NCBI RefSeq assembly: GCF_024345535.1 | Contig: NZ_JAGQBH010000002.1 | Location: 434,001 to 498,000, forward strand | Source: Cyanobium sp. N.Huapi 1H5 | GTDB lineage: Bacteria > Cyanobacteriota > Cyanobacteriia > PCC-6307 > Cyanobiaceae | Length of the DNA: 64,000 nt | Direction of reading: 5' to 3' | Part shown: piece by piece, positions 617-12,270 of the stretch | Numbering within the stretch: the first letter of the stretch is position 1 | Layout of the letters: every line of letters starts with the position of its first letter | Translations under genes and position numbers: made by a program | Notes under the pieces: generated by a model | The model's input: only the letters and a program-made list of their open reading frames with translations | Told to the model about the DNA's origin: nothing | Database searches by the model: none

Positions 617-857
617 CCTGACAAGACTCCAGGGATGGATCCGCAAGATGCCACCGGAACCTGCTGTTGCAGACGGTGGCGGCCAGATCCCCAACCCAGA
701 TGAGGAGACAGAAGCACCACGAACCAGGACTGGGCGGATGCACATTCAGGTGGCCTTTCCTGCATGGGATGGGAATCATCAAGCGATGGAATGGAAGGCC
801 ATCAATCCCGCGCAGCGAACAACCTGCTGGCTCGCCGACTAGGGATACGCTAGGGTT

Positions 858-874
858 GATTGGACAAGCCAATC
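858..874 (+). promoter_or_regulatory. Short inverted repeat in export-gene leader
   Basis: GATTGG (858-863) and CCAATC (869-874) form a perfect 6-base inverted repeat with a 5-base spacer. It ends 26 bases before the ATG at 901. It could be a small operator or a weak hairpin in the 5' leader. The site is short and could be chance. Confidence 0.2.
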
Positions 875-900
875 GGGGAAACTGTTCCGAATCGACACCA

Positions 901-1944
901 ATGTCGAAATTTGTATACTGGCTTCTTGGGCTGGCCTGCTGTATTGGCACAGCGGGTACCGCACAGGCTTTACCGATCTCACCCGGTGATCGGGTCAAGG
1001 TGACCATTCCGGAAGGTGAAGAATTCAGCGGAATCTTTGAAATCAATCTGAACGGAGAACTTGAACTTCCCTATCTCAAGGGAATCTCAGCCGTCGGCCT
1101 GGAACCTGAACAGCTGCAGAAGCGTGTCTCTCAAGCCCTTGTGCAACAGGGCTTCTTTCAACCATCCTTTCTCAGGGTCAGCCTGAGCGTCGTCCAGTGG
1201 GCACCGGTTCCCGTCTTCGTGATTGGATCCGCTTTTCAGCCTGGTCGCGTGTTGATCAACGAGTTGAGTGATGTGGAACAAACGCAGACACCTGTTCAAC
1301 TCTCTGGGCAGGCCCCGCTCAATCGTATGCTCACCACGGCTCTGCGTCGTGCGGGAGGCGTTACTCCCACCGCCGATGTCACCGCCGTGGAGTTGAAACG
1401 GGGATCACGGAAACAAGTGATTGACCTCACCGGCGCCTTCACGGGGGTGCCATTTAAGGACATCCCGCTGATTGCCGGTGATCAAGTGATGGTTCCCGAC
1501 ACGGGTAGCGTGAACCCACTGATCGTGCGCCCGTCGCACATCACACCCGCTGAGGTTGAAATCAACATCTCCAACCTCACTGTTCCTGCGGCGGGGAACT
1601 CTGTTGCCGGTATTGGCTCTCAGGCCAGGAACTTTCCCTATGGATCACGCCTGTCCCATGCCGTCATCTCGGCGAACTGCGCTGGTGGAACCATGGTCAC
1701 CAATGCGCGACGCAAAGCCATCCTGGTGCGAACAGAAAGAGCCTCGGGCAAGACGACGGTCTACGAACGGGGCGTGGAAGATCTTCTTCGTGCCTCGACG
1801 GACAACGCCAACAACCCCTACCTGATGGCAGACGATGGTGTGGCCTGTTATGACTCCAAGATGACAAACTTCCAGGCCGTCCTTAGTATCTTTACTCAGT
1901 TCCTGAATCCCGCCGTTTTGATATATGATCGAAGCATTCCCTAA
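901..1944 (+). CDS. Wza-like polysaccharide biosynthesis/export protein
   Basis: 347 residues from ATG 901. An open frame continues upstream, but 901 is chosen because the protein then begins with a clean Sec signal peptide (hydrophobic residues 5-21, likely cleavage after AQA at 23). The first mature segment (PISPGDRVKVTIP, then NGELELPYLKGI) matches the poly-export domain. VFVIGSAFQPGRV at about 105-117 begins an SLBB-type domain. Wza-family proteins form the outer-membrane channel for capsule or EPS export. No lipobox cysteine is visible, unlike E. coli Wza. Directly upstream of Wzz-like and Wzy-like genes, which fits a Wzy-dependent pathway. Confidence 0.85.
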   Translation: MSKFVYWLLGLACCIGTAGTAQALPISPGDRVKVTIPEGEEFSGIFEINLNGELELPYLKGISAVGLEPEQLQKRVSQALVQQGFFQPSFLRVSLSVVQWAPVPVFVIGSAFQPGRVLINELSDVEQTQTPVQLSGQAPLNRMLTTALRRAGGVTPTADVTAVELKRGSRKQVIDLTGAFTGVPFKDIPLIAGDQVMVPDTGSVNPLIVRPSHITPAEVEINISNLTVPAAGNSVAGIGSQARNFPYGSRLSHAVISANCAGGTMVTNARRKAILVRTERASGKTTVYERGVEDLLRASTDNANNPYLMADDGVACYDSKMTNFQAVLSIFTQFLNPAVLIYDRSIP

Positions 1945-1950
1945 GATAGA

Positions 1951-3462
1951 GTGAAAGAAGCTCCACCCATCATCAGACGCCTGAAGCCGAAGGTGCAGGC
2001 CGTACAAGAACCCTTGGGCAAGGCATCGCGGCTGTTTGCCGAGCAGTTTCGCAACATCCCTGGGTTGAAGCCTCCCGATCCAAAGGGTTGGTGGAAAAAG
2101 CTGAGTCGCACGGACAAACTCCGCTGGAGTCGTTATCTTTTCGTTTCCACGTGTACGAATGGCCTGATCTGGGGATCCAGCATTCTTTATCTTCTGCTGG
2201 CGAAGCCTGTCTATACTAGCTCCTGGGCTTTGATTTTACCTGGAAGTGCTAACGCTGTGAATTTGAGTCTCCCTGAGATTGGTCAGGCTACGGCATCGAA
2301 CGAATCCCTTGGCCTGGCAACATTTGATCCCCGAGCCAACTATGAATTCATCTTCGTTAGCGAGCAGGTATTGGCAAGGGCTGCCAAGATTGCCAATATT
2401 CCCAAGGCGGACTTTGCCAAGCCGCGCATTAAGAATATTGATAACACCACGCTGATGCAGATTGATACCACCGGTCCATCGCCTGAAGATGCTCGCAAGC
2501 GTGCCAATGCATTGCATGACGCCATGGTAGAGCGTCTCAATGAGCTGCGTGTCAGCGAGATTGAGCAACGGCAAGGTCCAGCACAAAAGATTCTTCTGGA
2601 AACGCAGCAGAAGCTTGAGAATGCCCAAAAACAAGTGTCTGCATACAAGCGCCAGTCTGGCCTCACATCGACAGAACAGGTTGAGATCCTGTCGGCTAAT
2701 ATTGAACAACTACGCAAGCAGAGGGCCGAACTTGCTGCTCAGCAATCGCAGGCTGAAAGTCGATTGCAGAAATTGAGTCGTAGCCTGGGGCTGTCTCCAT
2801 CCGAGGCCACAGATGCGTTCAAGTTGCAGGTGGATCAGATCTTCCAACAGAATCTAAAAGATTACAGCGAGGCGACATCTATACTCAAGGTTCAACAATC
2901 TAAGTTCGGTCGAAATAATCCGCGGATTCTCAAAGAAATCAAGCGGCAAGAGGCGGCAATGCAAGCCTTGAATCAGCGTGCCACTCTCTTGCTTGGACGG
3001 CCTGTATCCGCCAAGACGCTCTCACGACTTGCCTTGACGGGTGCAAGTTCGGGCCGTGAATCTCTCTTCCAGAACCTGGTGAACTACCAATCGGATGCCA
3101 GTGGTGCTGCATCACAAGTTCGTAAGCTTGATCAGCAGATCAGCTCCTTGGAGGGCCGTCTACGGTTGATGTCCCAAAGGCAGTCGTCTTTGGAGAACCT
3201 GAAGCGAAACGAGCAGATCGCAGAAGCCGTGTTTGCATCAACATTGGCCAAACTGGATCTTGGTCAGGCGAACATCTTTGCAGCCTTCCCGCTGATCCAG
3301 ATTGCTGTGGAGCCATCGCTGCCGGAAAAGGCGACGTCACCAAAACGTTCATTGGTTCTGGCTGGCTCAGCCTTTGGTTCCATCCTGACGACGACAGGTC
3401 TCTGGATTTTATGGATCCGCAAGCCCTGGATCAAGCGGCTTGGCCGTTGGGTTTCAACCTAG
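1951..3462 (+). CDS. Wzz/Wzc-like chain-length determinant (polysaccharide co-polymerase), no kinase domain
   Basis: 503 residues, GTG start six bases after the export gene stop. Topology is that of a polysaccharide co-polymerase: an N-terminal cytoplasmic tail, TM1 at about 62-84, a long periplasmic part rich in Gln/Glu/Arg heptads (coiled coil, roughly 190-420), and a second TM near 465-490 ending in the basic WIRKPWIKR. There is no C-terminal Walker-type tyrosine kinase domain as in Wzc. Such proteins set polymer length and link Wzy at the inner membrane to the Wza channel. GC is strikingly low for this genome: 23 of 60 bases in 2881-2940. Confidence 0.8.
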   Translation: MKEAPPIIRRLKPKVQAVQEPLGKASRLFAEQFRNIPGLKPPDPKGWWKKLSRTDKLRWSRYLFVSTCTNGLIWGSSILYLLLAKPVYTSSWALILPGSANAVNLSLPEIGQATASNESLGLATFDPRANYEFIFVSEQVLARAAKIANIPKADFAKPRIKNIDNTTLMQIDTTGPSPEDARKRANALHDAMVERLNELRVSEIEQRQGPAQKILLETQQKLENAQKQVSAYKRQSGLTSTEQVEILSANIEQLRKQRAELAAQQSQAESRLQKLSRSLGLSPSEATDAFKLQVDQIFQQNLKDYSEATSILKVQQSKFGRNNPRILKEIKRQEAAMQALNQRATLLLGRPVSAKTLSRLALTGASSGRESLFQNLVNYQSDASGAASQVRKLDQQISSLEGRLRLMSQRQSSLENLKRNEQIAEAVFASTLAKLDLGQANIFAAFPLIQIAVEPSLPEKATSPKRSLVLAGSAFGSILTTTGLWILWIRKPWIKRLGRWVST

Positions 3463-3475
3463 CCAGGAGACTTCT

Positions 3476-4807
3476 TTGGGACTCAAGACGCTTCTCTCCA
3501 AGGCTTTCCATTCTGAGGATGATCTTCAGCCGAGCAACGTGCCAGAGCGTCTGGTGTGGTGGTCGATTATCTGCACCTACCCCATCTGGCTCTTCGGTGG
3601 GCTTTATGTGGTGGGATCTGTTCTGTGCTGGCTCCTCCTGGGTTGCCTGCTGATCAAGATCCTGGCCCGCATGGATCACCCAGAGGAGAATGAAGAAATC
3701 TCTATTTCACCAGTGATCTGGCTGTGGATCATCGGCATGATCGTCATGGAGGTTGCCTTGATTGCAGGCCATGTGAATTTCAACCTCGGTACGGGGGCGA
3801 TCATCAAGTCCACGGTTGGCTGGGCCAAGGGCTGGGCCGCCCTGGCCCTTTACCCGCTAGCCGGAGCCCTGCCGATTCGGAGCAGCATCATCACGCGTGC
3901 CATTTGCATCGTCGGGCTGCATACGCTGCTCATCATGCCTTTTCTGATGCTGACCCCCAATCTGGGACTGCCAGAAGTCCTCTACGTCTCGCCACTGAGG
4001 GCCGTCGGTGGTCCGGGAAATGAGTTCTTTGATGTTCCGCTCTACGAAATCGATGGCAGCACCGGAGATCTTCGCTGGCGTCTCTTTGCACCGTGGGGGC
4101 CAGCCCTTGGTTTTGTTGGCAACATCAATTTCATGATCTGCTTACTGGAAAAGGACCGGAAGTGGAAACTTCTGGGAATTGCTGGTTCCATCGTCATGTG
4201 CTTTGTCTGCAAGTCCCGTCTGGCCCAGCTCTGCATCATCCTGATCCCGTCCGTGACGTTCGTGGTTTCCAGACTGCGGAAACCGGTCATGCTGATATCA
4301 CTTGGGGTTGTCTCCTATCTGGGTGGAATCTTCGCCACATCCATTCTTACGGCCGTCAATGACTACTGGGAAGGATTCAAAGGAGCAAGAGCTGGCTCAA
4401 CGCGAGTTCGCTTTGCGTTGAAGCGAATCGCCTTTCATCGCTGGGAGACAGAGGCTCCGATCTGGGGGCATGGTGTTGTGGAAGGCGGACCCCATCTGGT
4501 GGAGTACATGGCCATCGGCTCCCATCACACCTGGGCCGGGGTTCTGTTCGTGAAGGGCATCGTGGGATTCTTTGCTATTGCGGTGCCGATGCTGGCAACG
4601 GGTGTGGATCTGCTGCGTCGCGCAGCCAGTCCCCACTATCAACTTGGCACGGCGGGGCTGGGAATCATCATCCTCCTTTTCATGTACACGTTTGGTGAGA
4701 ACCTTGAGATCCTCGTCTACCTCTTCTGGCCAGGAATGGTGATCATGGGCATGGCTCTGCAGGAGAAGAAAGGCACGACCGTTCCTGACCTTCAGCCCGT
4801 ATCGTGA
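3476..4807 (+). CDS. Wzy-like O-antigen/EPS polymerase, integral membrane
   Basis: About 443 residues with roughly ten to twelve hydrophobic segments. A large loop in the second half holds WGHGVVEGGPHLVEYMAIGSHHTW, here split as WGHGVVEGG and GSHHTW, resembling the Wzy_C/O-antigen ligase loop with conserved His and Arg residues. Start: a TTG at 3440 would overlap the Wzz-like gene by 23 bases. The TTG at 3476 is preferred because AGGAG lies six bases upstream (3465-3469). Polymerises lipid-linked repeat units on the periplasmic side. Individual Wzy proteins are poorly conserved, so the call rests on topology and context between co-polymerase and flippase. Confidence 0.75.
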   Translation: MGLKTLLSKAFHSEDDLQPSNVPERLVWWSIICTYPIWLFGGLYVVGSVLCWLLLGCLLIKILARMDHPEENEEISISPVIWLWIIGMIVMEVALIAGHVNFNLGTGAIIKSTVGWAKGWAALALYPLAGALPIRSSIITRAICIVGLHTLLIMPFLMLTPNLGLPEVLYVSPLRAVGGPGNEFFDVPLYEIDGSTGDLRWRLFAPWGPALGFVGNINFMICLLEKDRKWKLLGIAGSIVMCFVCKSRLAQLCIILIPSVTFVVSRLRKPVMLISLGVVSYLGGIFATSILTAVNDYWEGFKGARAGSTRVRFALKRIAFHRWETEAPIWGHGVVEGGPHLVEYMAIGSHHTWAGVLFVKGIVGFFAIAVPMLATGVDLLRRAASPHYQLGTAGLGIIILLFMYTFGENLEILVYLFWPGMVIMGMALQEKKGTTVPDLQPVS

Positions 4808-4887
4808 TCCACACCTGCTGTGCCTGTAGTGAGAGGCCCGGATGCCATGATGGGCCACCGGATGCTCCCGGGCGGGGTTGACCATTG

Positions 4888-6168
4888 ATGGGCCTGCTCA
4901 GCAACCTCAAACAATTCATCCCCAAGGATCGATTCATCCGCAACATCGGCTGGATGGGTGCGGGGGAGGTGGGGATCCGAGTCTCGCGGCTCGTGGCCAC
5001 CGTTCTGCTGGCCAGGCTGCTGAGCCCCAGGGACTATGGCCTGGCGGCCATCGTGTTGACCTCAGGCGAGCTGGTCAAGGTCTTCACGCGCAACGGCATC
5101 GGCGACAAGATCGTGCAGGCCGATGCGGAGGAGGTCAGCGAGATCTGCCAGACGGCATGGAGTCTGAACTGGCTGATCGGCTTCAGCCTTTTTCTGATTC
5201 AGATCATTGGCTCGTTTGTCTTTGCCAAGATCTACAACGACAACGCGCTGATTGTTCCGATCATCGTGGTGAGTTTCAGCTATCTGATCTATCCACTCTC
5301 CATGGTCCAGTCGGCCTTGGTGCGTCGCAAGAATCGGCTGAAGTTCTACAGCATGACCAACCTCGCCGCCGTTGCCAGCGAAAACCTGATGACAGGCATC
5401 TTTGCACTGATGGGCATGGGGATGTGGGCGATTGTGCTTCCCAGATTGCTGGTGGCTCCCGTATGGGTTGCGATGATGCTGCGCTTCGAGCCATGGCGGC
5501 CCGCGATGACGTTCACGCTCAAGCGCTGGAAGTCCGTACTGCAGTTCGGCAGTCGCATCCTCGGGGTGGAGATGCTCAACACGTTCCGGGAGAACGTGGA
5601 TTATCTCCTGATCGGGCGCTTCATCGGTGTCAAGGCGCTGGGGGTGTACTACTTCGCCTTCAACGCCGGACTCGGTCTGAGCCTGAGCGTGATCAATGCC
5701 CTTTCCGTCTCCCTCTACTCCGACTTCTGTGACGTCCGCAGCCAACCCGCCGTACTCAAGGAGCGTTTCCGCAAGAACCTGCTCACCATCACCAAGGTGA
5801 TCGTGCCCGTGGTGGCCCTGCAGTGCAGCCTTGCCCCTCTCTATGTGCCGATCGTCTTTGGCCGGCAGTGGGTGACGGAGGGGGCGGTGCCGATTCTCAT
5901 GCTGATCTGCCTGTCGGCCCTCTCCAGGCCGTTCGCCAACGCCTCCGCCATGCTGTTCCGCGCCGTGGGCTTGCCCCAGGTGGATCTGCTCTGGAACCTG
6001 GCGTTCACGGTGGCACTCACCGTGGCCATTCTGATCGGCACGACATGGGGATCCCTCGGCGTGGCCGTCGCCGTGGCAGCGACCCATCTCACGCTGCAAC
6101 CCATCTACGTGATGCTGGGGCAACGGCTGCTGCGGAGGATCCAGATCGCTCAGCCCGCAGGCCTGTGA
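4888..6168 (+). CDS. Wzx-like polysaccharide flippase (MOP superfamily)
   Basis: 426 residues from ATG 4888 (a TTG codon directly before it is less likely). Multiple hydrophobic segments throughout, with an N-terminal amphipathic start (FIPKDRFIRNIGWMGAGE) and the polysaccharide-synthase pattern of paired TM helices with short charged loops (RLVATVLLARLLSPRDYG). Wzx proteins flip undecaprenyl-diphosphate-linked oligosaccharide across the inner membrane before Wzy polymerisation. It lies between the polymerase and glycosyltransferase genes. Composition rises towards the genome norm through this gene. Confidence 0.85.
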   Translation: MGLLSNLKQFIPKDRFIRNIGWMGAGEVGIRVSRLVATVLLARLLSPRDYGLAAIVLTSGELVKVFTRNGIGDKIVQADAEEVSEICQTAWSLNWLIGFSLFLIQIIGSFVFAKIYNDNALIVPIIVVSFSYLIYPLSMVQSALVRRKNRLKFYSMTNLAAVASENLMTGIFALMGMGMWAIVLPRLLVAPVWVAMMLRFEPWRPAMTFTLKRWKSVLQFGSRILGVEMLNTFRENVDYLLIGRFIGVKALGVYYFAFNAGLGLSLSVINALSVSLYSDFCDVRSQPAVLKERFRKNLLTITKVIVPVVALQCSLAPLYVPIVFGRQWVTEGAVPILMLICLSALSRPFANASAMLFRAVGLPQVDLLWNLAFTVALTVAILIGTTWGSLGVAVAVAATHLTLQPIYVMLGQRLLRRIQIAQPAGL

Positions 6169-6303: not shown

Positions 6304-7149
6304 GTGAAGATCTACGCCATTTGCCTGATCAAGAATGAGGGCGATGTCATTGCGGATTGCCTGCATCATGCACTGACCTTCTGCGATCGGATCTTTGTTC
6401 TTGATAACGGCAGCACGGATGGTACCTGGGAAACCGTGAATGCCCTTGCGAGGCAGTTTCCTGCCATCGTGATCGAAGAGCAGCTCCTGATTCCATTCCG
6501 TGATGGGATGCGCTCGATCGTCTACAACAAATACAACCACGAACTGACGGATCAGGATTGGTGGCTGCGGCTGGATGGGGATGAGTTCCTTGAGGGGAAC
6601 CCCAGAGACGTGCTCGCCAGGGCGAATCGTGAAAGGGCCGACTTCGTGACGGCCTGGAATCTTCAGTTCTATTTCACCGACGCGGATTACAAGAACTGGG
6701 CGGCCGAGAAGCTGGAACCCAGTCGACCCATCACCGAGCGCCGCCGCTATTACTCCGCCAATTGGCGAGAGTACCGCTTCTTCCGCAACCAACCCCATCA
6801 ACCATGGAACGAAGCGGTGGCGCCCCAGTGGCCCAACGGGCTCAAGAAGGCTTGCTCCCAGCGTCTCTATAACCGCCACTATCCCTACCGCACGCCGGAT
6901 CAGATCAAGGAGAAGCTTCAGGCCCGCTACGGCCATGAACAGTTTCGCCATATCAACTCCATCGACTGGACCTCCAAGCTGCTGCCTGCCCATCAGTTGA
7001 ACCACTTCCAGGAGGGTCAGCCACCAACCATCAACCAGTTCGATTACTACGCCAAACGCCTGCGGATGATCCGGATCACCCTGATGGGGCGTTTCAGGGC
7101 CATCCTGGGTCGGCTTCTGGGCGGCCACCGCTCCAGCCATACCTCGTAG
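6304..7149 (+). CDS. GT2-family glycosyltransferase
   Basis: 281 residues from GTG 6304. Begins MKIYAICLIKNEGDVI and has the nucleotide-binding DNGSTDGTW (34-42) and the metal-binding DGD (91-93, in LRLDGDEFLEGN). This subgroup (NEGD/E start, DGDEF) is common in bacterial glycan clusters. Cytoplasmic and predicted to add one sugar to the lipid-linked repeat unit. The preceding 135 bases hold nothing recognisable. Substrate unknown. Confidence 0.85.
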   Translation: MKIYAICLIKNEGDVIADCLHHALTFCDRIFVLDNGSTDGTWETVNALARQFPAIVIEEQLLIPFRDGMRSIVYNKYNHELTDQDWWLRLDGDEFLEGNPRDVLARANRERADFVTAWNLQFYFTDADYKNWAAEKLEPSRPITERRRYYSANWREYRFFRNQPHQPWNEAVAPQWPNGLKKACSQRLYNRHYPYRTPDQIKEKLQARYGHEQFRHINSIDWTSKLLPAHQLNHFQEGQPPTINQFDYYAKRLRMIRITLMGRFRAILGRLLGGHRSSHTS

Positions 7150-7156
7150 GGGGGCG

Positions 7157-8167
7157 ATGGCGCAGACCGAAAATCCCGAAACGTCGACGGCCGTTGCGTC
7201 CCCAGCAGGACAGGACAAACCGGCCATTGCCGTTGTGATCCCCATCTACAACGCGGCGCCACACCTCGCTGAAACGTTGCGTTCGCTCCAGAACCAGAGC
7301 CTGAGCAACTGGGAACTGATCGCGGTGGACGACGGGTCCACTGACGACAGCTGCGCCATCGTGACCCGCCTGTGCGGGGACGACCCCCGGGTGCACCTGG
7401 TGAGCCAACCCAATGCGGGCGTCTCGATGGCCCGCAATCGCGGGGTGGCCTGCAGCCGTGCGCCCCTGATCGCCTTCCTGGATGCCGATGACCTCTGGCA
7501 TCCCGACAAACTGCGCCTCCATGTCGAACACCACCGCCACCATGGCGAGGTGGGCGTGAGTTTCGCCCGCGTCGAGTTCCTGTCCCCTGAGGGGGCGCTC
7601 ACGGGCCTGCTGGCGGCCCTGCCCCGAGCCTCCTATCGACCGGTGGATTTCCTCTGTGAGAACCCCACCAACACCACCTCCAACTGGGTGCTGCGGCGGG
7701 AGGTGTTCAGCGCGGTGGGCGGATTCGTCTCCGACATGAGCTACTCGGAGGATCTGGAATGGTTACTGCGGGTGGCCTGCGATGGCCGCTGGCGCATCGC
7801 TGGACTGCCGCAGGTGCTCACCTACTACCGCACCTCGGCCGGGGGACTCTCTTCAAGTCTGCAGCGGATGGAGCAGGGCTGGCTGCGGCTGATCACCGAA
7901 GCCCGTGGCTATGCGCCGGAGCTGGTGAGGCGACACTTCGCCACGGCCCAGGCCATTCACCTGCGCTACCTGGCCAGGCGTTCCCTGCGCCTGGGGGGGA
8001 CTCCCGCCGTCGGCACCGATTTCATGCTGCGCTCCCTGCGCTCCGACTGGCGCCTCCTGCTGCGGCAGCCACGGCGTACGGTGCTCACCTCCCTGGCCGT
8101 CTTCGCCCGTCAGCTGCTGGCCCCATGCCGCCGCCTCGGTGGCCCCCACAGCAAGGCGCGGTCATGA
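7157..8167 (+). CDS. GT2-family glycosyltransferase (paralogue 1)
   Basis: 336 residues, ATG 7157, seven bases after the previous stop. A GT-A fold is indicated by VVIPIYNAA (27-35), DDGSTDD (58-64) and the DADD metal site (109-112), followed by SYSEDLEWLLRVA in the acceptor half. The first 20 residues are a Thr/Ala/Pro-rich extension. The C-terminal ~100 residues (HLRYLARR, SDWRLLL, PRRTVLTS) align by eye with the next gene, so the two are tandem paralogues that probably recognise related acceptors. Confidence 0.85.
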   Translation: MAQTENPETSTAVASPAGQDKPAIAVVIPIYNAAPHLAETLRSLQNQSLSNWELIAVDDGSTDDSCAIVTRLCGDDPRVHLVSQPNAGVSMARNRGVACSRAPLIAFLDADDLWHPDKLRLHVEHHRHHGEVGVSFARVEFLSPEGALTGLLAALPRASYRPVDFLCENPTNTTSNWVLRREVFSAVGGFVSDMSYSEDLEWLLRVACDGRWRIAGLPQVLTYYRTSAGGLSSSLQRMEQGWLRLITEARGYAPELVRRHFATAQAIHLRYLARRSLRLGGTPAVGTDFMLRSLRSDWRLLLRQPRRTVLTSLAVFARQLLAPCRRLGGPHSKARS

Positions 8168-8206
8168 TGGCTTCTGCGACGCCCCTCTGCCTGTGAGCCC
8201 ACTGTC

Positions 8207-9238
8207 ATGAGCCGAGTCCCCCTGATCACGGTGGTGATGCCGCTCTACAACTCCGCCGCGACGGTGCGGGAGAGTCTCGAATCGGTGCTGGCCCAGACCT
8301 ACACCAACCTCGAGATCCTGGTGGTGAACGACGGCTCCACCGATGACGGGGTGGCGATCTGCCAGGGCTACAAGGATGCTCGCCTGCGGATTGTGCACCA
8401 GCACAATCGGGGTCTGGCGGGTGCCCGGAACACGGGAATCCGCCAGGCCCAGGGGGAGTTTCTGGGGTTTCTCGACAGCGATGATCTCTGGCTGCCCACC
8501 AAGGTGGAGCGCCATGTGGCCCATCTGCAGGCGCGGCCGGAGGTGGGGGTGAGCTTCTCACGCTCCAGCTTCATTGATGAGGCCTCCAGGCCCATCGGCA
8601 TCCATCAGATGCCGCAACTGCGGGACATCACGCCGGAGATGGTGTTCTGCCGCAATCCGATCGGCAATGGCTCCGCGGTCGTGATCCGCCGCGAGGTCTT
8701 CGCGGCCATTCGCTTCACCGCCAATCTCTATGGCGAGGTGGAGGATTTCTTCTTCGACGACAGCTTCCGCCAGTCCGAAGACATCGAGTGCTGGCTGCGG
8801 ATCGCCCTCCAGACCCAATGGCGCATGGAGGGGATCCCCGAGGCCTTGACGCTTTACCGCATCAGCGACGGCGGACTCTCGGCCAACCTGATGAAGCAAT
8901 ACGCCTCCTGGGAGCGGGTTCTGGTCAAGACCGAAGCCACCCACCCCGACTTCATCGCCCGGTGGGGCTCCAGGGCCCGGGCCTATCAGCTGCGTTACCT
9001 GGCACGCCGGGCCACCCGTCAGCGGGATGGCGCCCTGGCCGTGCGACTGCTGCACCAATCCCTGGCCACCGACTGGAGGGTGCTGCTGGAGGAACCGCGA
9101 CGCACCCTGATCACCCTGGTGGCGGCCTACCTGCTGCTGGTGTTGCCGGAAGGTCCCTATCGCTGGCTGGAGGGGCGCATGCTGCGCTCCACCGGCGCCA
9201 GCCAGAAGCGACGCATGCAGGGGGAGCTGGGCCGATGA
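8207..9238 (+). CDS. GT2-family glycosyltransferase (paralogue 2)
   Basis: 343 residues from ATG 8207. Motifs: VVMPLYNSA (9-17), NDGSTDDG (41-48), DSDD (90-93) and QSEDIECWLRIA. The C-terminus shares LRYLARRA, TDWRVLL and PRRTLIT with the preceding gene. Its TGA overlaps the ATG of the Alg14-like gene (ATGA), which makes it the first member of a five-gene chain with four-base overlaps ending in the RsbW-like gene. Adds a sugar to the repeat unit; which one is unknown. Confidence 0.85.
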   Translation: MSRVPLITVVMPLYNSAATVRESLESVLAQTYTNLEILVVNDGSTDDGVAICQGYKDARLRIVHQHNRGLAGARNTGIRQAQGEFLGFLDSDDLWLPTKVERHVAHLQARPEVGVSFSRSSFIDEASRPIGIHQMPQLRDITPEMVFCRNPIGNGSAVVIRREVFAAIRFTANLYGEVEDFFFDDSFRQSEDIECWLRIALQTQWRMEGIPEALTLYRISDGGLSANLMKQYASWERVLVKTEATHPDFIARWGSRARAYQLRYLARRATRQRDGALAVRLLHQSLATDWRVLLEEPRRTLITLVAAYLLLVLPEGPYRWLEGRMLRSTGASQKRRMQGELGR

Positions 9239-9690
9239 AGATCCTTCTGGTCTGTTCCTCGGGGGGGCATTTCAAGGCCCTGCAGCAACTGGCCGACTTC
9301 TGGGGGCGCCATCCCCATCTCTGGATCACCTTTCGCACCCCGACCACCGAAACCGCCCTGACCGGGGAGTCGGTGCAATGGGCTCACAGCCCCACCAACC
9401 GCAACCTGCCGAATCTGCTGCGCAACCTGGCTCTGGCGCTGCAGGTGATCCGCCGCCAGCGGCCGGACGTGATCGTTTCGACCGGTGCCGGTGTGGCCGT
9501 CCCCTTTCTGCTGCTCGGTAAGCTGTTCGGATGCAAGACCGTGTTCATCGAGTCCGTGACCCGCATCGAGACCCTGAGCCTTTCGGCGCGGCTTGTTCGA
9601 CCGTTTCTTGACATTCTTTACGTGCACTGGCCCCAGCTCCAGCGTCGCTATCCCCGCGCCGAACTTGTCCAGAGCAAGGTGGGATCATGA
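9235..9690 (+). CDS. Alg14/PssD-like glycosyltransferase membrane subunit
   Basis: 151 residues, ATG overlapping the previous TGA. Starts MKILLVCSSGGHFKAL with the SSGGH motif (8-12) of Alg14 and the N-terminal half of MurG-like GT28 enzymes. STGAGVAVPF and a hydrophobic GKLFGCKTVFIES follow. In eukaryotic Alg13/Alg14 and bacterial PssD/PssE or EpsE/EpsF pairs this subunit binds the membrane and the lipid acceptor, while the partner carries the nucleotide-sugar site. Here the partner gene overlaps its stop by four bases. Likely adds the second sugar of the lipid-linked unit. Confidence 0.85.
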   Translation: MKILLVCSSGGHFKALQQLADFWGRHPHLWITFRTPTTETALTGESVQWAHSPTNRNLPNLLRNLALALQVIRRQRPDVIVSTGAGVAVPFLLLGKLFGCKTVFIESVTRIETLSLSARLVRPFLDILYVHWPQLQRRYPRAELVQSKVGS

Positions 9691-10166
9691 TCTTGGTGAG
9701 CGTGGGGACCGAACAGTTCCCGTTCAACCGGCTGATGCAGTGGATGGAGCTGCTGATCCAGCAGGAGCTCATCGATGAGGAGATCGTTGTTCAGTACGGC
9801 ACCTGCACCTTTCTCCCCAGCGGTACCACCGTGTACCGGTTGTTGAAGGAGGACTCCTTCCGGGCCCTGGTGGAAAAGGCGCGGGTCGTGATTGCCCACT
9901 GCGGGGAAGGAACGGTGCTGTTGCTCGATGAACTGCAACAGCCCTTCATTCTGGTGCCCCGCAGCGTCCGCTATCAGGAGCATGTCGACGATCACCAGGT
10001 GGAACTTGCCCTGGCCCTGAAGCAGATGGGTGTGCCGATCGCCTGGGGGCCGGGGGATCTGGTGCGCTTTCTCGCTGCGCCCTTCAAGACCTCGATCAGC
10101 GACGTGACCGACAGCTCCGCCCAGTCCCTCTGCCGGAGTCTCCAGTCCCATTTTCCAGAGCCATGA
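9687..10166 (+). CDS. Alg13/PssE-like glycosyltransferase catalytic subunit
   Basis: 159 residues, ATGA overlap with the Alg14-like gene. Matches the C-terminal GT28 domain: VSVGTEQFPFNRL (4-16) at the start, and HCGEGTVLLLDELQQP (71-86) in place of the canonical HGGxGT sugar-nucleotide loop. PLFILVPR-type ends (FILVPRSVRYQEHVDDHQ, here 87 onward) are typical of Alg13. Forms a heterodimer with the preceding product and transfers a UDP-sugar onto the undecaprenyl-PP-sugar made by the next gene's product. Gly to Cys in the second position of the loop is a small deviation. Confidence 0.85.
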   Translation: MILVSVGTEQFPFNRLMQWMELLIQQELIDEEIVVQYGTCTFLPSGTTVYRLLKEDSFRALVEKARVVIAHCGEGTVLLLDELQQPFILVPRSVRYQEHVDDHQVELALALKQMGVPIAWGPGDLVRFLAAPFKTSISDVTDSSAQSLCRSLQSHFPEP

Positions 10167-11164
10167 GCGGCGGCCCGTCGTCCCAGGATTCGTTCGTCAG
10201 GACCGTGCGCAACGGTGTGCTGATCCTCCAGCTGCCGCCCCGGCTCACCGTGGCCGAAGCCGTGGCGTTCCGCTCCGGTTTCGGGGGCTGGCTGGCGGAG
10301 GTGGAGGGCCTGCGGCAGGTGATCCTGGATTTCGGGCGCACGGCCATCATCGACAGCAGCGGCATCGGTGCCCTGGTGGGCGCCATCAAGACGGCCCAGG
10401 AGCGCGCGGTTCCCCTGGCGGCCTGGAGCCTGAACCGTCAGGTGTTCCTGGCCCTGCAGATGACGGGACTGGAGAAGGTCCTGCCGATCACGGCCCATTC
10501 CGAGGGGCTGCTGCCCCAGCTGTCCCATACGGAGGACCAGCGGCCACCGCTCACCCACCCCTCGGTGCGCTCCGCCGTCAAGCGATGCCTGGATGTCTGC
10601 GGCGCCCTGGTGGGTCTGGGGGTCACGGCGGTGCTGTTCCTGCCCATCGCCCTGGCCATCCGCCTGGACAGCCCGGGGCCGATCCTGTTCCGGCAGGTGC
10701 GCTGCGGCTGGATGGGCCGCCATTTCCGCATCTGGAAGTTCCGCTCGATGGTCACCGATGCCGAACGGCTGAAGGACAGTGTGGTGAACCAGGCCCAGGG
10801 GGCCTTCTTCAAGAATGACAATGACCCCAGGATCACCCGCGTGGGCCGGATCCTGCGCAAGACCAGCCTGGATGAACTGCCCCAGTTCTGGAACGTGCTG
10901 GTCGGCGACATGAGCCTGATCGGAACCCGGCCCGCCACCCCGGACGAAGTGCGCCGCTACGCCATCCCCAGCTGGCAGCGGTTCGATGTGCGGCCAGGCC
11001 TGAGTGGGGAATGGCAGGTGAGCGGCCGCTCATCGATCCGGGATTTCGAAGATGTGATCCGGCTGGATCTGCGCTACCAGCAGAACTGGAGCCTGGGTTA
11101 CGACCTCAAGCTGATTTTCCGCACCTTTCTTGTTCTGTTCAGCAAGAACTCAGGGGCGGCATGA
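10163..11164 (+). CDS. STAS-domain / undecaprenyl-phosphate sugar-1-phosphate transferase fusion
   Basis: 333 residues in one uninterrupted frame. Residues ~14-118 are a STAS (anti-sigma-antagonist) domain: VILDFGRTAIIDSSGIGALV contains the phospho-acceptor motif DSSG (64-67), and TGLEKVLPI (101-109) is the usual STAS end. A short linker leads to a bacterial sugar transferase (PF02397) at ~137-333: KRCLDV, the re-entrant hydrophobic helix 143-166, SPGPILFRQVRCG, KFRSM (192-196), the catalytic Asp-Glu of SLDELPQFWNV (237-238) and GDMSLIGTRP (usual GPRP is GTRP). The transferase starts repeat-unit synthesis by loading sugar-1-phosphate on undecaprenyl phosphate. Overlaps neighbours by ATGA on both sides; the next gene is an RsbW-type kinase. 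Confidence 0.9.
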   Translation: MSGGPSSQDSFVRTVRNGVLILQLPPRLTVAEAVAFRSGFGGWLAEVEGLRQVILDFGRTAIIDSSGIGALVGAIKTAQERAVPLAAWSLNRQVFLALQMTGLEKVLPITAHSEGLLPQLSHTEDQRPPLTHPSVRSAVKRCLDVCGALVGLGVTAVLFLPIALAIRLDSPGPILFRQVRCGWMGRHFRIWKFRSMVTDAERLKDSVVNQAQGAFFKNDNDPRITRVGRILRKTSLDELPQFWNVLVGDMSLIGTRPATPDEVRRYAIPSWQRFDVRPGLSGEWQVSGRSSIRDFEDVIRLDLRYQQNWSLGYDLKLIFRTFLVLFSKNSGAA

Positions 11165-11661
11165 ACCTGCCTGAGCCTTCGGAATCCGATCGGCCCCTCG
11201 GCCAGCTCGCCGTCAACAGTGATCTCGATGAGATCGAGACGGTGCTCCGCTGGTTCGAGCAGCTTGCTGATCCCGCCGTGCCGCCGGAGCTCTGGATGCA
11301 GGCCCAGCTGGGCCTGGTCGAGGGGTTCACCAACGCGGTCCGCCATGCCCACGCCGATCTGGACCCGCCGCCGCCTGTCCAGCTGTCGGTGCAGGTGAGC
11401 AGCCAGCGGTTCTGCGTGCAGATCCTCGACCAGGGTGCCCCCTTCGACTTCGAGGCCGCCCTGGCCACCGTGGAGAAGGCCGTGGAAACCAGCGATCACG
11501 ATCCCCTCGCCAGGGAGGCCCACTGGGGCCTGGTGATGTTGCTGAAACTGCGCGGCGCCTACGGATGGACGATCAGCCAACGGCGGGTCGACGCAGCGAC
11601 CAACTGCCTGTCCCTCTGCCACCCCCTCAGCGCTGATGGGGGGACAGAAAGGTCATTGTGA
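11161..11661 (+). CDS. RsbW/SpoIIAB-type anti-sigma factor kinase-like ATPase
   Basis: 166 residues, ATG overlapping the TGA of the STAS-transferase fusion. GHKL fold markers in order: N-box LVEGFTNAVRHAH (Glu54, Asn58, His62), G1 box ILDQGAPFDF (Asp90, Gly92), and the G2 region HWGLVMLLKLRGA (123 onward). RsbW/SpoIIAB proteins bind and phosphorylate STAS partners on the DSSG serine and, in their free state, hold a second target. Here the evident STAS partner is part of a biosynthetic enzyme. No sigma factor or PP2C phosphatase gene is in the window. Kinase activity is inferred from the family; phosphotransfer would need the intact N-box, which is present. Confidence 0.85.
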   Translation: MNLPEPSESDRPLGQLAVNSDLDEIETVLRWFEQLADPAVPPELWMQAQLGLVEGFTNAVRHAHADLDPPPPVQLSVQVSSQRFCVQILDQGAPFDFEAALATVEKAVETSDHDPLAREAHWGLVMLLKLRGAYGWTISQRRVDAATNCLSLCHPLSADGGTERSL

Positions 11662-12052
11662 AGTACTCGGGATGGCAACGGGCGGGCTGAAAGATCGACC
11701 AGCGGGTCCACAGATGCAGGTAGTGGTTCGTCCCGTTCGGCCCCCGTCCCCAACCATGGGCGACGGACTGGCCCCAGACGATGCTGTTCGCCTCCAGGGC
11801 TTTTCTTCGTTCCGGAGGCAGTGAGCTCAGATCTCCCCGGTAGAGAATTCTCCGGCCCCGGTAGAAGAAGGCGGGTTGGCTGTCCGTGTCCTTGTGGTGC
11901 CCATCGACCAGAAACCACACCTTCTTGCTCTTCTGGAGCATCCAGAAGCTGCGGGAACAGCGGGGCGGGACGGTGTCGTTCTTGTAGCTGTAAAGAAGGC
12001 CGTGGTGATGGTCCGGAGCCCCAAGGGCCGGGGCGACGATCTCCAGTCCCAT
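11627..12052 (-). CDS. Hypothetical protein, convergent with the RsbW-like gene
   Basis: The complement codes for about 141 residues from ATG 12052 (a TTG at 12130 would add 26). Rich in Trp, His, Tyr and Phe (FWMLQKSKKVWFLVDGHH, HYLHLWTRWSIF), unlike the low-complexity shadow frames of this genome, and moderately lower in GC. No family recognised; no signal peptide or membrane segment. Its last 35 bases overlap the 3' end of the kinase gene on the other strand. Could be a chance frame, but the composition favours a real protein. Confidence 0.45.
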   Translation of the reverse strand: MGLEIVAPALGAPDHHHGLLYSYKNDTVPPRCSRSFWMLQKSKKVWFLVDGHHKDTDSQPAFFYRGRRILYRGDLSSLPPERRKALEANSIVWGQSVAHGWGRGPNGTNHYLHLWTRWSIFQPARCHPEYFTMTFLSPHQR

Positions 12053-12270
12053 GAACACAAAGGCGGACGTACGGGCGGCGAATCGGTGCAACCGTGGCGC
12101 TTGGACCGATTGCCGCAATCCAGGCTGCAACCGGGTTCACCGTTGGATTTAGGAGTAGAACTTTAGACCGGGACCAGGCGAGGCCAGGCCTGTTCCGGGA
12201 CGGCCCCGGACCGTCGCTGCGTCCGGCTCGCTAACCTCAGGCCAGACGTCTGATCCCGGCTGACCGCATC

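Follow-up and report, generated by a model that had tools for sequence, protein, structure and literature searches.

A polysaccharide-initiating transferase fused to a partner-switch domain in many cyanobacteria, with kinase and phosphatase genes often nearby and an H-NOX-type sensor gene sometimes

What does a STAS protein act on when it serves as the output of a signalling route for polysaccharide production? HmpV of Nostoc punctiforme and SypA of Vibrio fischeri are such outputs and are described as being without a known target (PMC6495340, PMC8256260). The question is raised by a gene in a 64,000-nucleotide stretch of the genome of Cyanobium sp. N.Huapi 1H5 (assembly GCF_024345535.1, contig NZ_JAGQBH010000002.1, positions 434,001 to 498,000; the whole stretch is hereafter the window), in which a STAS domain is joined to an initiating phosphoglycosyl transferase. 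The covalent fusion names a candidate target for STAS outputs, i.e., the enzyme of the first membrane step. The locus is read here, with a probability of roughly 60%, as a partner switch of the Rsb type that has the initiating enzyme itself as its output. If this is true, a partner switch would control an enzyme directly and not through transcription, and there would be a defined route from a signal to the lipid carrier that is shared with cell-wall synthesis. Many cyanobacteria may thus control polymer production directly, at the level of the enzyme. The parts are of known kinds and the joining of STAS to an initiating transferase appears to be a new combination; no description of such a fusion was found in the open-licence PMC literature.

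The fused enzyme and its family

An earlier note on this stretch, made from its letters alone, had described a STAS domain and a complete PF02397 transferase in one frame. Pfam places both domains in a single open frame (Table 1), and the DSSG site as well as the transferase motifs KFRSM (residues 192-196) and SLDELPQFWNV (235-245) are all present as described. The Bac_transf profile is covered from position 1 to 178 of 179, so the catalytic domain is complete. Asp237-Glu238 stands where work on PglC places the catalytic dyad of monotopic transferases. Sequence matches of the transferase part in the PDB include WbaP (1e-36) and PglC (3e-26). The predicted model of the fusion (predicted local distance difference test, pLDDT, 87) has PglC and WbaP as fold matches for one half and SpoIIAA and RsbV for the other. 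It contains a long helix at residues 138-169, which, with the PglC match, fits a small-form monotopic transferase with one membrane-embedded helix. The large-form bundle of WbaP (four membrane helices and a cytoplasmic domain) is not present in the fusion, the N-terminal half of which is the STAS domain according to Pfam and the model.

Across 63 aligned fusions, Ser65 and Gly67 are the sole invariant residues of the STAS half. The serine is retained in 100 of 100 assessable fusions, with an adjacent kinase gene or with none. This count takes in two proteins that the motif pattern missed (L003, which has DSSG, and L117, in which KSSG retains the serine); L127 is truncated by its contig.

The fused protein occurs in 12 of 25 genomes of the genus and in nine of 15 from other families (40 genomes searched), with G008 included though its fusion lies in two frames, and G032 included as seen in L023. 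In a class-wide draw, the STAS part was matched at E 1e-12 or better in 106 of 388 genomes, and most of the matching frames are as long as a fusion. Genome contigs were scanned as well; the best 80 of 589 confirmed relatives were kept, and the STAS-transferase is present at all 80 loci (L127 being cut by the contig end), of which 79 are filed under cyanobacteria. The exception (L106:7840-8991, + strand) is filed under the purple bacterium Rhabdochromatium marinum; transfer and contamination are both possible. Among the matches listed, the nearest named relatives of the window protein are one Cyanobium and one Synechococcus strain. Within this survey, the scope of which is the cyanobacteria, the sequences mark the fusion as a cyanobacterial family.

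In a tree of the transferase part (117 rows), 100 fusions stand on one branch with support of 100/98, and ten outgroup rows fall outside it together with seven close transferases that have no STAS domain. The tree has long branches and its bootstrap was not settled. Its rows exclude duplicate and truncated copies (L025, L032, L033-L050, L127) as well as rows identical to others, L051 for example, and L001, L003 and L012 were labelled as kinase-adjacent by hand from separate reading of their loci. The earlier note had held that a STAS part unrelated to other fusions, and lost in close relatives without a change in EPS control, would speak against its idea. The domain belongs instead to a conserved fusion family in which the switch serine is one of the two invariant STAS residues, and no loss in close relatives was seen, since the seven STAS-less proteins lie outside the branch. 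At one locus (L114:7987-12707, + strand) there are two STAS-transferase genes, one of them on a very long branch.

The arrangement could in principle be an artefact of sequencing or assembly, or a set of chance neighbours. In a single relative, G008, the STAS domain and the transferase lie in separate, overlapping frames (L012:1091-2148, + strand), for which a frameshift and an assembly error are both possible. About 100 loci, drawn from two genome collections and spread over many genera, share the architecture, and this conservation already refutes an artefact or chance, the probability of which is negligible.

Kinase, phosphatase, second STAS and sensor genes

The gene that follows the fusion codes for a putative GHKL kinase of the RsbW/SpoIIAB type, as had been proposed. 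Its ATG lies at 11161 and the TGA of the fusion at 11162-11164, which gives the ATGA overlap described earlier; the start at 11011 in the list of open reading frames is too long. Across 37 kinases, E54, F56, N58, A63, L67, D90, G92, G123 and L150 are invariant, so that the N-box and G1 (D90, G92) are covered, and G2 in part. In a fold search of the PDB with the model of the kinase (pLDDT 88), the five best matches are all SpoIIAB and RsbW is within the first ten, and the matched structures of both were solved together with their STAS partners.

A neighbouring HATPase_c_2 gene, for which the earlier note had proposed a search, is found directly downstream of the fusion in all 12 fusion-bearing genomes of the genus, and an overlap of -4 (ATGA/GTGA-type) in seven of the 11 genus loci measured or read. 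Outside the genus sample it lies beside the fusion, i.e., on the same strand and within 1 kb, at 26 of the 80 scanned loci. The same scoring took L001 and L003 to be kinase-less because the distance rule missed long frames; a kinase is seen at both on direct reading. There are one to six HATPase_c_2 matches per genome (E <= 1e-6) in 2.3-7 Mb (33 genomes), so adjacency by chance would be well under 1% per locus, and chance was rejected on the counts in the genus and elsewhere. At L074:10932-12179 (+ strand) two kinase genes follow the fusion in tandem.

The kinase family is present somewhere in the genome, at 4e-30 or better, in 27 of the 28 fusion-holding genomes searched; the exception is the Rhabdochromatium genome, where the best match is 7e-7. 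Twenty kinase loci were fetched, four of them beside a fusion, and 11 of the other 16 lie beside a PP2C gene. Both PP2Cs tested from kinase loci without an adjacent fusion have a receiver domain. At one such locus, in Nostoc (L189), a STAS gene is present as well and completes the set.

The PP2C gene that had been sought just outside the window is present on the same contig, with a second, free STAS gene beside it. Also outside the window on this contig are genes for a hybrid kinase (HNOBA, HisKA, receiver and Hpt domains), an H-NOX protein and a pyruvyl transferase. The same genome holds an ordinary-looking partner switch at G000:C9:184389-186341 (L034, L037, L049), a row of separate STAS, HATPase_c_2 and SpoIIE genes. 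Among the 12 genus genomes with the fusion, a receiver-class PP2C lies on the contig of the fusion, 8-19 kb away, in ten (on another contig in G002 and G011), and a STAS gene adjoins that PP2C in all 12. With two STAS proteins in the circuit, the kinase could switch between the free STAS and the enzyme.

In some genomes the parts lie closer together. Five Nostocales loci (L053, L055-L058) hold fusion, kinase, STAS and phosphatase within about 4.5 kb. An H-NOX and an HNOBA kinase stand beside the phosphatase in four of these and on the opposite side of the fusion in L055, giving the same six parts as in the window strain. Three Laspinema/Oscillatoria loci hold fusion, kinase, phosphatase and STAS, with PAS domains in the one phosphatase tested, and no H-NOX match was found in the sequence stretches examined there. 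It appears from this that the input is exchangeable and the output part stays. The compact module of fusion, kinase, STAS and PP2C is also present in L148.

The H-NOX protein beside the switch (HNOB E 6.1e-49) adjoins the HNOBA kinase and is a close relative (E 1.8e-70) of Alr2278 of Nostoc sp. PCC 7120, an H-NOX with solved structures. Within the genus, eight of 12 fusion genomes have an H-NOX gene, at most 15 kb from the fusion in each case, as against one of 13 fusion-free genomes (Fisher p 0.0036, uncorrected for kinship; the H-NOX is in two pieces in G003 and partial in G017). The H-NOX/HNOBA pair as input in a subset of loci makes nitric oxide or a related ligand the likely signal there.

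The proposed switch and the points that bear on it

In the proposed mechanism, the kinase would bind the STAS domain built into the initiating transferase and would probably phosphorylate Ser65, so that the enzyme is held in a state of low activity. The receiver-PP2C, driven by the hybrid histidine kinase, would dephosphorylate the free STAS and perhaps the fused STAS too. The free STAS would then pull the kinase away from the fusion, and the freed transferase would put the first sugar phosphate on the lipid carrier. The unphosphorylated form would be the active one, by analogy with SypA and HmpV, the unphosphorylated forms of which are described as active (PMC8256260). The first enzyme as the control point has direct support from EpsW-EpsZ of Myxococcus xanthus, where a signalling protein acts post-translationally on an initiating transferase (PMC12802240).

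Several observations weigh against this mechanism, the first of which concern linkage. At 54 of the 80 scanned loci there is no kinase next to the fusion, although some of these end near contig ends, and kinase adjacency requires about 11 changes on the tree. A kinase strictly dedicated to the fusion was rejected on the former count. The view that the enzyme has its own kinase agrees with the gene order in the genus and fails for most loci elsewhere, though nearly all genomes searched hold the family. The kinase-less loci would also suit a STAS domain that is a mere docking or dimerisation module, for the transferase or for another protein of the cluster, with no phospho-switch. STAS domains do serve in transporters without this switch, and fold matches to the STAS of SLC26/SulP were obtained. 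A docking module would not account for the retention of Ser65 and Gly67 alone in the STAS half, both with and without an adjacent kinase, nor for the recurrence of kinase, free STAS and PP2C beside the fusion, and it is considered unlikely.

The kinase itself raises further doubts. The intact N-box and G1 box described in the earlier note were borne out, but G2, which it did not mention, is HWGL in the window kinase where GxGL is usual. The motif is degenerate throughout the subfamily, with HWG or QWG in Cyanobium/Nostocales kinases and GxGL in most others, and phosphorylation, as opposed to mere binding, is therefore uncertain. The fold similarity is moderate (template modelling score 0.54-0.61 to the query, 12-16% identity), other GHKL ATPases are close behind, and no PDB sequence matched the kinase at E 0.1, the matches coming from the fold search only. 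The subfamily could consist of pseudokinases which bind and block the STAS-transferase without phosphorylating it and are displaced by the free STAS. Such proteins would leave the retained PP2C with no substrate, and the N-box Glu/Asn and G1 Asp/Gly are invariant in all 37 kinases; a pseudokinase is rated as rather improbable.

On the input side, 19 genomes of the class sample have both the fusion and H-NOX, and in only five of them (G000, G008, G248, G332 and G394) are the two linked, at a distance of up to about 12 kb. They lie far apart or on other contigs in the remaining 14, and a general partnership between H-NOX and the fusion was rejected on this ground. The H-NOX of the window strain lacks the proximal haem histidine of an H-NOX signalling pair, a tyrosine standing in the place of the haem-ligating histidine of Alr2278, and a nearby hybrid histidine kinase is interrupted by an in-frame stop. 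The histidine is an aspartate in G008 and is retained in eight of ten aligned cluster H-NOX proteins. The tyrosine and the stop suggest a possible decay of the input in the window strain, with the output retained.

A mirror case, related systems and the gene cluster

Three genomes show a second case, separate from the first, in which part of a switch has been built into a polysaccharide enzyme. Here an RsbW-like domain of the same kinase family is inserted into the catalytic domain of a cellulose-synthase-like protein of 801-807 residues, between the YxLDDG and DADH motifs. All three genomes have a STAS gene directly downstream. The D, DxD, TED and QxxRW motifs are retained in nine such frames read (three probably from the same genomes). 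Kinase matches in frames of 786-844 residues occur in at least 13 of 388 genomes, four of which were judged by frame length only. This mirror case supports the idea of a partner switch wired into a polysaccharide enzyme.

It also bears on a reverse flow of control, in which the STAS-transferase would keep the kinase at the membrane as a decoy. The state of the enzyme would then control another target of the kinase, a sigma factor or the free STAS, with feedback on expression. Canonical RsbW controls a sigma factor, and the free STAS encoded with the switch in all 12 genus genomes and in the compact modules gives the kinase another partner. Ser65 is invariant, though, while pure sequestration would not require control by phosphorylation, and the mirror enzyme also places the switch in a synthase. 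A decoy role is given a low probability.

The preferred reading, a switch acting on the initiating enzyme, can be widened into a tentative proposal that is put at clearly less than even odds. On at least two occasions, cyanobacteria would have wired partner switches directly into the membrane enzymes by which polysaccharides are started or built, once with the STAS fused and the kinase in trans, and once with the kinase inserted and the STAS in trans. Such enzymes would be the missing effectors of HmpV/SypA-like STAS proteins, for which the fusion makes them candidates, and H-NOX would feed nitric oxide into the switch in some clusters.

The Rsb/SpoIIA systems (RsbU-RsbV-RsbW, SpoIIAA-SpoIIAB) share with this locus a STAS with the DSSG serine, a GHKL kinase of SpoIIAB/RsbW fold and a PP2C of the SpoIIE family. 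They differ in that here one STAS is fused to a membrane enzyme and the kinase G2 is atypical; moreover, no sigma factor was seen in the module, although no search aimed at sigma-factor genes was made. The HmpU-HmpV-HmpW system of N. punctiforme likewise has a cyanobacterial PP2C, STAS and kinase tied to polysaccharide, with the STAS as output (PMC6495340, PMC8256260; gene numbers in PMC10581220). HmpV, however, is a free STAS with an undefined effector (PMC6495340, PMC8256260), whereas here the STAS is covalently part of the initiating transferase.

The nearest whole-pathway parallel is HnoX-HahK-SypF-SypE-SypA of V. fischeri, which shares an H-NOX, a hybrid kinase, a receiver protein acting on a STAS and a polysaccharide end point (PMC12369376, PMC4517449, PMC8256260). 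There SypA is free, with its target unknown, and SypE is kinase and phosphatase in one (PMC12369376, PMC4517449, PMC8256260); the locus described here has a STAS joined to the enzyme, with one protein as the kinase and another as the phosphatase. EpsW is a separate, phosphorylated response regulator that acts on a large transferase (PMC12802240), while here the catalytic domain is a bare one and is joined to a STAS. The published discussion of EpsW-EpsZ refers to small transferases fused to receiver domains and makes no mention of STAS (PMC12802240).

Table 1. Coordinates of the fusion, its partners and the neighbouring genes. Plain numbers are positions in the window; C and L prefixes denote contigs and fetched loci.
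Feature	Position	Strand	Basis or remark
STAS-phosphoglycosyl transferase fusion gene	10163..11164	+	333 residues; one open frame, Pfam, predicted fold
STAS domain, residues 14-112	10202..10498	+	Pfam E 1.3e-11
DSSG switch site (D64-S65-S66-G67)	10352..10363; Ser65 codon 10355-10357	+	sequence
Monotopic phosphoglycosyl transferase domain, residues 140-326	10580..11140	+	Pfam PF02397 (Bac_transf) E 2.8e-64
Asp237-Glu238	10871..10876	+	sequence; both nearly invariant in alignment
RsbW/SpoIIAB-like kinase gene	11161..11661	+	166 residues; HATPase_c_2 E 3.1e-13 (Pfam)
Kinase N-box EGFTN (E54, N58)	11320..11334	+	E54, F56, N58 invariant in 37 kinases
Kinase G2 position, HWG in place of GxG	11521..11529	+	sequence, kinase alignment
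Stand-alone STAS gene	C5:427558-427920		outside window, same contig
Receiver-SpoIIE (PP2C) phosphatase gene	C5:427926-429239		convergent with and beside free STAS
H-NOX genes lacking haem histidine	L021:17661-18338; L025:10424-11038	-	alignment
Hybrid histidine kinase next to phosphatase operon	L021:11406-13070	-	in-frame stop between HisKA and HATPase parts
Cellulose-synthase-like + RsbW-like genes	L186:5818-8223; L187:7306-9726; L188:2472-4874	-; +; +	
Export protein	667-1944	+	Pfam
Two frames without Pfam match	1951-3462 and 3440-4807	+	Pfam scan
Flippase	4885-6168	+	Pfam
Glycosyltransferases	6304-9238	+	Pfam
Alg14-like + GT28 C-terminal (Alg13-like) pair	9235..10166	+	Pfam; ATGA overlap with fusion
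Frame without Pfam match, beside cluster	11627-12130	-	Pfam scan

By its content, the cluster upstream of the fusion is a Wzx/Wzy-type polysaccharide cluster. The two frames without a Pfam match that lie between the export protein and the flippase could, by position, code for a polymerase or a ligase. With ATGA overlaps on both of its sides, the fusion is probably translated together with the kinase and the Alg13/14-like pair.

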